Assembly: GCF_000384335.2 (NCBI RefSeq)
Contig: NZ_KQ031382.1
Location: forward strand, 3,545,545-3,609,544
Length of the DNA stretch: 64,000 bases
Direction of reading: 5' to 3'
From: Hyphomicrobium sp. 99
GTDB taxonomy: Bacteria > Pseudomonadota > Alphaproteobacteria > Rhizobiales > Hyphomicrobiaceae
Numbering within the stretch: position 1 is the first letter of the stretch; each line of letters begins with the position of its first letter. The notes under the pieces were generated by a model that saw nothing but the letters and a program-made list of their open reading frames with translations, searched no databases and was not told the DNA's origin. This document shows positions 38,395-43,791 of this stretch, piece by piece. Made by a program: the position numbers and the translations under genes.

Positions 38395-38438
38395 GTTAAC
38401 CTTTCTCGCCCCACCGGCGACGGTCTGAATAATTTTCT

Positions 38439-38605
38439 AAGACGGCAGGTCTCCTGGCTCGCGGGTCTCAGCGTCTGGCGACCTTCCCGGGTATTGCCCA
38501 GTGGTCATATCGCCAGCGCTCACCGCTTACAGTTGCGGGGGCAGCTGCGGAGTAAATACCGCATTCCCTTAGAACCCTCTTGCGAGGGACCGTCCTCACC
38601 ATCGA
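38439..38605 (-). promoter_or_regulatory. Cobalamin (B12) riboswitch
   Basis: Reading the minus strand, the 3' end at 38439-38459 is the B12 box AGCCAGGAGACCTGCCGTCT. Upstream the conserved core GCTGCCCCCGCAACTGTAA and the preceding stem GGTGAGGACGGTCCC and TAAGGGAATGCGG are all present, matching the cobalamin riboswitch. It leads the transcript of the 47-codon ORF and cobW-N-G-H-I-J, which it should repress when adenosylcobalamin is plentiful. Confidence 0.93.
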
Positions 38606-38667
38606 TAAGTGAGCGACTATGCTTCGTCAATCGCCATCGCGTACCCGAAACCGCCCGAAAGCTGCCC

Positions 38668-39816: not shown

Positions 39817-41288
39817 TGCCAGCGCGCGCCCTGATGTTTTCAGGCACAGGCTCGGATGTCGGCAAATCGCTGATGGTGGCGGGCCTTTGTCGCCTCCTCG
39901 CAAACCGCGGCATCCGCGTCCTACCGTTCAAGCCGCAGAACATGTCGAACAACGCCGCCGTGACAGCCGATGGCGGTGAGATCGGCCGCGCGCAAGCACT
40001 TCAGGCACGCGCCGCCCGTGTCGCGCCGTCAGTGCACATGAACCCGGTCCTTCTCAAACCCGAAAGCGAAACGGGCGCCCAGATCGTCGTGCAAGGCAAG
40101 ATGATCGGCTCTGCGAGAGCCCGCGAGTTCCAAGCGAAAAAACCCGAGCTTCTACCGGCGGTTCTCGAAAGCTTCGGCCGTCTGAAAGCGGATGCCGATA
40201 TCGTTCTCGTCGAAGGCGCAGGCAGCGCCTCGGAGATCAATCTCCGGAAAAACGACATTGCGAACCTTGGTTTCTCACGCGCGGCGGGAGTGCCGGTGAT
40301 TCTGATCGGCGACATCGATCGCGGTGGCGTCATCGCCAGTATCGTTGGAACCGAGCGCGTTCTCGATCCGGACGATGCGGCAATGATCCGAGGATTCATT
40401 GTCAACAAGATGCGCGGAGACGCCACGCTCTTCGCCGACGGCATGGCGGCGATTGCGAAGATGACGGGATGGGCGCCTCTCGGCCTCGTGCCATTCTTCA
40501 ACGACGCGCGAAAGCTTCCCGCTGAGGACGCCCTCGCCCTGCGCGATCTCGCGAAAGCATCGAAATCGAACGCGGGCGTAAAGCTCCGCATCGCGGTGCC
40601 GGTACTGCCGCGCATTTCGAATTTCGACGACCTCGATCCGTTACGCGGCGAGCCGAGCATCGCCGTGAATATGATCGAACCCGGCCGCCCCATTCCGGCG
40701 GATGCGGACCTCATCCTCCTCCCCGGCTCGAAAGCGACAATCGATGATCTAGCGGCACTCCGCGCCGAAGGCTGGGATATCGATATCAAAGCTCACGTAC
40801 GTCGCGGCGGCCGCGTCCTCGGACTTTGCGGCGGCTATCAGATGCTAGGGAAGCGCATTTCCGATCCTGCCGGCATCGAGGGCCCGCGGCGGACCGTCGA
40901 AGGCCTAGGTCTGCTCGACGTCGAGACGGAATTCGGAACCGAGAAAACGCTCGCAGCCGTCACGGGAACGCTCAACGCAAAAGGGGCACCCTTTCAAGGC
41001 TATGAAATGCACGTCGGCCGAACCTCGGGGCCAGACACAGCGCGCCCGATCCTGACATTCGCCGATGGCCGGAGAGACGGAGCAACATCACCGGACGGCC
41101 GCGTCGCCGGATGCTATGTCCACGGAATTTTCGCCTCCGACGCGGCGCGCGCGGCTATTCTTGGAACCTTCGGCGTCGAAGCATCCAGCAACAGCTACGA
41201 AGCCGAAATCGATGATATTCTCGATAGCTTCGCCGAGCATCTCGCCCGGCATGTAGCGATCGACGATCTTCTCAGCCTCGCAAAATGA
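39816..41288 (+). CDS. cobQ: Cobyric acid synthase CobQ
   Basis: CobQ amidates the b, d, e and g side chains of adenosylcobyrinic acid diamide. The N-terminal ATPase domain has GTGSDVGKS and [14 protein letters not shown]. The C-terminal amidotransferase has the Cys of [12 protein letters not shown] and the His of GCYVHGIF. 490 residues. Its 3' end overlaps that of the convergent cobD by 17 bp. Confidence 0.94.
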
Positions 41289-42246
41289 AGGCGAAGAGCA
41301 GCAGCGTCGTAATCATGATGCCCCACGCAATCGTCGCCAACCGAAGCGCCGAGTAAATATCGTCCGCTGTCAGTTCGCGGCGGCCATTGCCCATATAGGC
41401 ATCCTCGACGCGCACATCGCCATAAACTTTCGGACCGTTGAGCTTGAACCCCAGCGCTCCCGCCATCGCGCTTTCCGCCCAACCGGCATTGGGTGACCGA
41501 TGTTTCGAAGCATCTCGAGACATCGCCTCGAGCGCGCTGGCCGGCGATGCGCCCGGGATGAAGAGAGCCGCAGCGGCGAACATCAATCCGGTCAGCCGCG
41601 ACGCCGGCAGATTGACGAGATCGTCGAGCCGCGCCGCCGCCCATCCGAACGCCTCATGCCGCTTCGTCCGATGACCAATCATGCTGTCGGCCGTGTTGAT
41701 CGCCTTGTAAACGGCGAGACCCGGCAGCCCGAAAAAGGCGAACCAGAACACCGGCGCGACGATGCCGTCGGACGCATTCTCGGCGAGGCTTTCAATCGCG
41801 GCGCGCGCGACTCCATGTTCGTCGAGCGTCTGCGGATTGCGCCCGACAATGCGACCGACCGCGAGCCGCGCCCCTGCGAGTCCGTCCTCGTCGAGCGCGC
41901 GAGCGACAGCGGCCACATGGTCGTAAAGACTTCGACTTGCAATCAACGTCGAAGCCAGTATCGCGATGAAAATAGCGCCGATCGCACTATGCGCAGCCAC
42001 ACGCTCGACCAACCAGGCGAGAGCGCCGACCGTCAAGACGATGATCGCCAAGGCCAGGACGCCCGACATGCGCCGCGCAGCTTCGCTCTCGCTTTCCCTG
42101 TTAAGCCAACGATCGAGCGCGGCAATGAGAGCGCCGATCCAGGACACGGGATGGCCGATGCGCTGATAAATCCAATCCGGATAGCCAACGGCCGCTTCGA
42201 GCGCTAGCGCAGCGACGACAACCAGGAGGGTGTGTGTCTCAGTCAC
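41272..42246 (-). CDS. cobD: Adenosylcobinamide-phosphate synthase CobD (CbiB)
   Basis: This membrane enzyme (CobD in this nomenclature, CbiB in the anaerobic one) attaches aminopropanol to adenosylcobyric acid. 324 residues with about five membrane helices include [47 protein letters not shown] and [27 protein letters not shown], all family marks. Start is GTG at 42246. The usual neighbour cobC (threonine-phosphate decarboxylase) is not here. Confidence 0.92.
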
Positions 42247-42294: not shown

Positions 42295-43791
42295 TCAAGA
42301 TTGCTCCGGCAAAACGCCGTGAGCTGCCGCGATCTGTTCTGCCCGCTCCGCCGCATCTCGCGCCGTTGCATAACGCAAAGCCTCCCCGAGCATCACAAGC
42401 ACCGGCCCATCCGGATGCGCCGCATCGAGTGCCGCGGCAATGGCTCCGATGGTCGAGACGAAAACGCGCTCGTCCGGGCGTGTTGCATTGGCGACCGCGA
42501 TGGCCGGTGTTTTCGGGTCGAGCCCGTGCACCAGCGCAATCTCAGTAAGTTCCGCGAGCGTCCGCTTCGGCATGTAGATAACGGTCGTCGCCGCGCTGTC
42601 GGCTACGGCGCTCCAATCGATATCCTTGGGCAGCATCCCGCGACGGTCATGGGCGGTAATGAACTGCAAACGGCGCGCATGATCGCGGTTGGTGAGCGAC
42701 ACCTTGAGATTGGCCGCTGCGCCTTGGGCGGAGGTCACCCCCGGCACGACGCTGATCGCAATGCCCGCCGCCTCACACGCTTCGATCTCCTCCCCGGCGC
42801 GCCCGAAGATCAACGGATCGCCCGACTTGAGACGAACGACTTTGAGACCCTCGCGCGCCAGCGATACCATTTGCGCATTGATGTCGGGTTGCTTGCACGA
42901 CTTGCGATAGCCGCGCTTGCCGACATCGATCAGCCGCGCCCCCGGACGGACGAGATCGAGGATCGGCTTGGCGACAAGATCGTCGAAGAGCACCGCGTCA
43001 GCGGATTGCAGCGCGAAAAGCGCCTTGATCGTCAAAAGCTCCGGATCACCCGGCCCGGAGCCGACGAGCGTAACTGAGCCCGGTCGTGTTGGCTTTGCAG
43101 GTCGCGCGTCTTTCGCTTCATTCGAAAGCGGCGCGTTACCGGCTGTAAAATACCGTGTCTCGAAAGGCGTCCGCTCCTGCCATCCATGCCGCTCGAGCTC
43201 GGGATCAAGATGTTCTTCTTCGGGCCAGCCGAGCAGGAGATAGCCGACGAGCTTCCAATCGGGGGGCGCTCCAAGGGTCTTGGAGACCTGAGCCGGATCG
43301 ACGATCGACACCCAACCAAGGCCTAGGCCTGCTTCCCGCGCGGCAAGCCAAAGCACCGTCACCATGCACGCGCAGGAATGGTCGAGCGTCTCCGGCATCG
43401 TATGCCGTCCGAGCCCATGCCCCTGCAGCACGCCCTGGTCGCAAAAAACCGCGAGATGCACGGGCGCGGCTTTCAAGCCCGCGAGCTTCAACCGATAATA
43501 GAGATCGGCCTGGTCGCCGCTATAGCCCTCGCCGGCATGGATCCGCGCCGCTTCGAAATTGCCTACGATCTCGGCCCGCAATTCGGAGGACGGCACGTTG
43601 ACGATCCGCCACGGCTGACTGTTGCCGACCGACGGCGCCAAATCGGCGAGCCGCAAAAGCCGCTCGACCAACGCATCAGGAACAGCATCCGTCTTGAAAC
43701 GACGTACATCGCGTCGCCAGCGGACGAGTTGCTCCAGCGTCGCCCGCCCTTCCGCGTTCGGATTGTCATCGTCGGTGTTGCGAAAAGTCAT
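42295..43791 (-). CDS. BluB-CobA fusion: DMB synthase joined to uroporphyrinogen-III methyltransferase
   Basis: One continuous frame of about 498 residues carries two enzymes. Residues about 15-225 are BluB, the flavin destructase that makes 5,6-dimethylbenzimidazole, with RRDVRRFKTDAV, RLADLAPSVGNSQPW, GLGWVSIVDP and PEEEHLDPELERHGW. After a short linker (NEAKDARPAKPTRPGS) residues about 243-485 are CobA/SUMT, which makes precorrin-2, with VTLVGSGPGDPELLT, VVRLKSGDPLIFGRAGEE and PGVTSAQGAAA. Both halves are full length with no frameshift. The start could also be at 43866, adding 25 residues. It ends the cob cluster, 48 bp from cobD. Confidence 0.92.
   Translation of the reverse strand: MTFRNTDDDNPNAEGRATLEQLVRWRRDVRRFKTDAVPDALVERLLRLADLAPSVGNSQPWRIVNVPSSELRAEIVGNFEAARIHAGEGYSGDQADLYYRLKLAGLKAAPVHLAVFCDQGVLQGHGLGRHTMPETLDHSCACMVTVLWLAAREAGLGLGWVSIVDPAQVSKTLGAPPDWKLVGYLLLGWPEEEHLDPELERHGWQERTPFETRYFTAGNAPLSNEAKDARPAKPTRPGSVTLVGSGPGDPELLTIKALFALQSADAVLFDDLVAKPILDLVRPGARLIDVGKRGYRKSCKQPDINAQMVSLAREGLKVVRLKSGDPLIFGRAGEEIEACEAAGIAISVVPGVTSAQGAAANLKVSLTNRDHARRLQFITAHDRRGMLPKDIDWSAVADSAATTVIYMPKRTLAELTEIALVHGLDPKTPAIAVANATRPDERVFVSTIGAIAAALDAAHPDGPVLVMLGEALRYATARDAAERAEQIAAAHGVLPEQS

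Follow-up and report, generated by a model that had tools for sequence, protein, structure and literature searches.

In Propionibacterium freudenreichii, BluB is known to be fused to CobT2, and channelling has been reported for this protein (PMC4657239). As to CysG, it has been suggested that the residues lent by its uroporphyrinogen-III methyltransferase (SUMT) module may account for the benefit of that fusion (PMC7018833). The gene described in this work is located in a window of 64,000 nucleotides (i.e., the whole stretch of DNA that was analyzed) of contig NZ_KQ031382.1 of Hyphomicrobium sp. 99, and joins a BluB and a SUMT in a single reading frame. The explanation that best accounts for the data as a whole, and that we regard as quite probable, is that this bluB-SUMT gene is bifunctional and of single origin, a SUMT of the CysG type having been joined to BluB and the resident CysG having been reduced afterwards.

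BluB converts FMNH2 and O2 into dimethylbenzimidazole (DMB), and SUMT methylates uroporphyrinogen III twice, giving precorrin-2, the precursor common to siroheme and vitamin B12. Since the two reactions have no shared intermediate, channelling between the two halves is not expected.

Structure of the bluB-SUMT Gene

The gene and its parts are arranged as follows:

42295..43791, minus strand: bluB-SUMT fusion gene, 498 amino acids, ATG at 43791, with no internal stop
43153..43749, minus strand: BluB (5,6-dimethylbenzimidazole synthase) domain, residues 15-213 (TIGR02476; alignment with 2isj)
43081..43152, minus strand: linker, residues 214-237, corresponding to the gap between the two domain matches
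42370..43080, minus strand: SUMT/CobA domain of the CysG type, residues 238-474 (TIGR01469; tree; active-site positions)

Both halves score above the curated cut-offs, i.e., 250.7 bits with TIGR02476 for the BluB half (equivalog cut-off 150; residues 15-213, profile positions 5-203 of 205) and 258 bits with TIGR01469 for the SUMT half (cut-off 185; residues 238-474, profile positions 1-236 of 238). The original prediction of one intact frame comprising a complete BluB and a complete SUMT is thus borne out. Pfam places Nitroreductase at residues 23-189 and TP_methylase at residues 240-451; no CobT family is present among the domain matches of the protein, whose second domain is TP_methylase, so that its architecture is not that of BluB/CobT2. 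The start codon is well conserved, a methionine being found at that column in 64 of 69 aligned fusions (the others being four gaps and one T).

Residues 13-215 align with the BluB structure 2isj, and D28 and S162 face the D and S at chain positions 35 and 170 of the latter. These positions, which we take to be the important D32 and S167 of Sinorhizobium meliloti BluB, are kept in all of the 69 fusions. Similarly, the positions that we assume to form the SUMT active site of Escherichia coli CysG (P225, D248, K270, G302-D303-P304, R309, and M382) are each kept in the SUMT half of 15/15 fusion genomes. The ratio of non-synonymous to synonymous substitution rates (dN/dS) points to purifying selection, ranging from 0.03 to 0.15 in the BluB half and from 0.02 to 0.09 in the SUMT half (12 chosen pairs, with dS >1 in some of them). 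On the basis of the kept residues, both halves are probably active, and the protein is probably a two-domain bifunctional enzyme.

The linker is rich in Ala, Ser, and Pro over the 69 fusions and variable in length (9-40 residues). Lys does not belong to its eight most common residues, so that the Pro/Lys richness previously noticed is a feature of the window copy. In the AlphaFold2 (AF2) model of the fusion, the predicted local distance difference test (pLDDT) falls below 50 at residues 219-235, within the linker, which agrees, together with its variability, with the expected connection between independently folding domains. The BluB half is modelled well (template-modelling score, TM-score, 0.83 normalised by 2isj_A).

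Distribution of the Fusion

Among 22 genomes of the same genus, BluB and SUMT lie in one open frame in 15; four others possess an unfused BluB only (G006, G009, G011, and G015), and no BluB exceeds the cut-off in the remaining three (G010, G017, and G021). In none of the 15 is the fusion split. Among 103 genomes of the family, the fusion was found in no other genus: the three other BluB frames of sufficient length (G032, G054, and G035) have no SUMT. A check of 20 further BluB loci containing long frames likewise revealed none with SUMT. Full-length matches were retrieved only from four of the seven genus members in the order sample (397 genomes), which are the four carrying the fusion, and only from the window's genome in the class sample (385 genomes). 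A divergent fusion could have been missed, because the order and class searches covered 3 to 4 scored candidates per genome, the order-wide BluB table covers the stronger rows only, and the database search reported the best 120 of the 7,997 candidates scored. Both Pfam domains are present in 99 of the 120 database matches listed, with an identity of at least 61% by local alignment, and the organism names visible among these 99 are Hyphomicrobium and, once, a metagenome-assembled genome (MAG) labelled Proteobacteria. The idea that two normally separate enzymes have been fused is supported; the group of organisms concerned is a restricted one, and no report of a BluB-CobA fusion, or of a CysG deprived of SUMT catalysis but keeping the lobe, was found in the open-licence literature searched.

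Some other arrangements of bluB were observed. Two fusion-bearing genomes (G002 and G005) each harbor a second, unfused BluB: that of G002 (L226 6500-7375) falls into a remote BluB clade, set apart by a 100/100 split, and the second locus of G005 (L225 5283-6983) consists of a separate cobA followed by bluB, of other ancestry. In a Hyphomicrobium MAG (JAIEMV010000003.1, L092 4890-5600), an in-frame stop divides bluB between two frames, reflecting either a pseudogene or a sequencing error. Lastly, a genome of another family of the same order (G224, L151 1984-4164, minus strand) contains a 727-amino-acid frame in which, according to Pfam, CbiA and GATase_3 (CobB/CobQ-like) are joined to BluB.

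The Resident CysG and the Role of the SUMT Half

The window's genome, which spans 4.1 Mb and is rated 100% complete, has neither a BluB nor a SUMT over the cut-off apart from those of the fusion. The same genome encodes a shortened CysG:

G000:C3:3063875-3064933: truncated CysG open reading frame, 347 amino acids from the ATG or 353 from an upstream TTG

Its N-terminal domain is intact (TIGR01470, 173.8 bits vs. a cut-off of 62.3); the SUMT domain lies below its cut-off (TIGR01469, 30.3 bits vs. 185), as does the match to the trifunctional CysG (NF007922, 234.4 bits vs. 400). A CysG lacking the SUMT site and the C-lobe is harbored by all of the 15 fusion genomes (339-368 amino acids from the ATG), and CysG is full-length in each of the six fusion-less congeners with a complete gene (frames of 482-533 amino acids), G015, whose cysG ends at a contig end, having been left out. 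The association between truncation and fusion (15/0 against 0/6; Fisher p = 2e-5) is best interpreted as a single, linked history, because the fusion genomes form a single clade (96/87).

The two SUMT-derived sequences of these genomes have retained different residues. The CysG remnant keeps R260/R261/E262 in 15/15 genomes; in the SUMT half of the fusion, R261 is lost in 15/15 and the acid at position 262 in 14/15, and the pair R-D/E at 261-262 is found in 0/22 stand-alone CobA. In Salmonella CysG, R260, R261, and position 262 are part of the dehydrogenase/chelatase pocket (PMC7018833). This pattern suggests a complementary split, to which we assign a moderate probability, in which the copy joined to BluB would have kept catalysis and the CysG copy the pocket residues, the fusion supplying precorrin-2 in trans to both siroheme and B12.

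As to the destination of precorrin-2, the window's genome encodes CysI, the assimilatory sulfite reductase (813.4 bits, cut-off 457), as well as the nitrite reductase NirB (733.7 bits, cut-off 578.35), and thus needs siroheme. Since no SUMT other than that of the fusion exceeds the cut-off in 10/15 fusion genomes, the SUMT half most likely feeds both siroheme and B12. The combination of a sole SUMT, CysI and NirB, and a CysG with no SUMT site would make it a shared branch-point enzyme rather than one committed to B12. In the sequenced Methylobacterium, CysG alone is conserved as a SUMT source, one strain adding a plasmid-borne CobA (PMC3621897); the use of one SUMT for both pathways therefore has a precedent.

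Ancestry of the Two Halves and Origin of the Fusion

The SUMT tree was built on 79 domains (the short rows L162 and L166 were excluded from the initial 81). The 15 fusion SUMT halves form one clade (100/100), embedded in a supported set (96/91) comprising 22 CysG, 15 fusions, and one stand-alone sequence; judging from this topology, the SUMT half is of the CysG type. The BluB halves likewise make up one clade, sister to the unfused BluB of G006 and G011 (99/95). In another genus of the family, the CobA encoded beside bluB belongs to a separate clade of eight sequences (100/100), far from the fusion halves; read-through across such a cobA-bluB pair, as found in other genera, was therefore rejected as a source of the fusion, given the opposite gene order and the other SUMT clade. 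A clade of stand-alone SUMTs (L027, L031, L034, L039, and L049) is represented in five of the 15 fusion genomes (G005, G007, G014, G013, and G019, respectively). By eye, the surroundings of the extra CobA genes of G007 and G005 show a porin-like gene and lack nitrite and sulfite reductases over the stretch read.

These findings are consistent with a single origin at the base of one Hyphomicrobium clade, where a CysG-type SUMT would have been joined in frame behind bluB; most likely, SUMT moved from CysG onto BluB. The resident SUMT module of CysG has lost most of its catalytic residues and the whole C-lobe, presumably once the relocated SUMT was present, with the remnant keeping the N-lobe, whose R260/R261/E262 would line the dehydrogenase/ferrochelatase pocket. 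Both this order of events and a still working truncated CysG are what we infer from the comparison of extant genes.

Several observations weigh against this scenario. The 15-to-6 association does not correspond to 21 independent events. The SUMT half groups, although weakly (92/76), with the CysG of other families and not with that of the genus, and one or two further SUMTs exist in 5/15 fusion genomes. The SUMT residue D248 is also kept in 14/15 CysG remnants, so that the retention of residues may reflect the folding of the lobe as much as the chemistry of the pocket. In Salmonella, both R260A and R261A complemented the cysG deficiency, R261A doing so well, and D262 was not regarded as an absolute requirement (PMC7018833). 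The unfused sister BluBs (G006 and G011) lie outside any cob locus over the 14 kb read. Finally, the AF2 model of the fusion misplaces the SUMT lobes (root-mean-square deviation, rmsd, of 12-13 Å; predicted template-modelling score, pTM, 0.42), and this misarranged half was used as the basis for no claim; the model of the truncated CysG has a pTM of 0.43 and an rmsd of 7-8 Å to the whole CysG.

Two variants of the proposed origin deserve attention. There is about an even chance that the fusion itself was a neutral accident, later locked in by the relocation of SUMT and the decay of the redundant module of CysG: the lack of an intermediate common to the two reactions, a loosely constrained linker of variable length, and the occurrence of the fusion in one clade only, in the samples taken, would all fit this possibility. 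The fact that no clade genome has split the fusion speaks against it, though shared ancestry could explain it as well. Somewhat less probable, but still to be considered seriously, is the acquisition of the SUMT half by lateral transfer from the CysG of another alphaproteobacterial family. Besides the weak node mentioned above, the single half finds its best matches, with up to 61% identity, in CysG of other families, ahead of the congeners' own CysG (51-57%; G006, G010, and G011). However, the grouping of the fusion SUMT with the CysG of the genus was not rejected by the approximately unbiased (AU) test (p 0.112), and the fusion clade sits on a long stem (0.58), so that its placement is unsure.

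Organization and Regulation of the Locus

Two other features of the window are the following:

41272..42246, minus strand: cbiB, adenosylcobinamide-phosphate synthase (TIGR00380, 219.6 bits, cut-off 165.9)
38427..38609, minus strand: cobalamin riboswitch before cobW and the main cob operon (RF00174, 126.9 bits)

The gene trhO lies upstream of the fusion, and cbiB is the next gene downstream, on the same strand and 48 bases on. Beyond cobU-cobO-cobQ, and behind the cobalamin riboswitch, the cob operon (CobW, CobN, CobG, CobI, CobJ, and CobM) is found; CobG and CobN are markers of the aerobic B12 route. CobF is encoded elsewhere in the genome. CobL, for which no NCBIfam match at its threshold was listed in the window's genome, was assigned, like RsmI, by position, size, and reading. 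In all of the eight fused loci examined, bluB-SUMT, cbiB, and cobQ occur together, with cbiB after the fusion. About 1 kb or less separates bluB from cbiB in G009 and G015, which lack the fusion, but the BluB of these two genomes is of another clade.

The match at 38427-38609 is the only riboswitch match at gathering score in the window, and none precedes the fusion. A cobalamin riboswitch is located at a like place in 8/9 relatives, the stretch of the ninth ending short of that place, and in 9/9 the 5 kb preceding the fusion contain none. The cobalamin riboswitch thus does not couple the fusion to the other ring enzymes; a riboswitch-free fusion would suit an enzyme that stays on when B12 is plentiful.

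This arrangement bears on the possibility, put forward in the original prediction, that the fusion is a B12-specific device fixing the ratio between the supply of the lower ligand and the commitment to the corrin ring. Both domains do serve B12 synthesis, cbiB follows the fusion in the eight fused loci examined, and both halves are strongly conserved. Nevertheless, we consider such a device improbable, because SUMT acts at a branch point, no other SUMT exceeds the cut-off in this genome, which has CysI, NirB, and a CysG devoid of the SUMT site, and the main cob operon has a riboswitch that the fusion lacks. These data do not support a coordinated commitment to B12; likewise, a fixed 1:1 supply of the two ends of the molecule would not follow from the fusion, as equal numbers of domains should not set equal fluxes. 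An assembly or frameshift artefact has a negligible probability and was rejected, since the same frame recurs in 15 genomes, both domains are found together in many database entries, and dN/dS is low across both halves.

Comparison with Known Systems

Where visible among the matches listed, the database names of the fusion are SUMT, CysG-like trifunctional enzyme, or BluB, and never both. Given these one-sided names and a truncated CysG falling below the CysG cut-off, automatic reconstruction could misplace the entry step of siroheme and B12 synthesis in these methylotrophs, which include a proposed B12 producer (PMC9925536).

BluB-SUMT is a cofactor-enzyme fusion with an unusual history. Like BluB/CobT2 of P. 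freudenreichii, it unites BluB and a further enzyme of B12 synthesis in a single polypeptide (PMC4657239); however, CobT2 uses the product of BluB directly, whereas the Hyphomicrobium partner would act at the other end of the pathway. Stand-alone CobA (including 1s4d) has the same predicted reaction and, as in the fusion, lacks R-D/E at 261-262; the CobA adjoining bluB differs in its clade and in being encoded upstream of bluB, opposite to the order in the fusion. In Salmonella and E. coli, SUMT is already part of a fusion protein, CysG, and the Hyphomicrobium SUMT half is of this CysG type, but it is carried by BluB instead of the dehydrogenase/ferrochelatase, and the resident CysG has no SUMT site (PMC7018833). 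In yeast, SUMT and the dehydrogenase/ferrochelatase Met8p are also on different chains (PMC7018833, PMC7242693); unlike the truncated Hyphomicrobium CysG, which keeps the SUMT N-lobe with R260/R261/E262, Met8p has no SUMT-derived residues (PMC7018833). With regard to the benefit suggested for lent residues, the Hyphomicrobium lineage looks like a natural test, in which SUMT catalysis would have left CysG and the lobe bearing these three residues stayed in 15/15 genomes.
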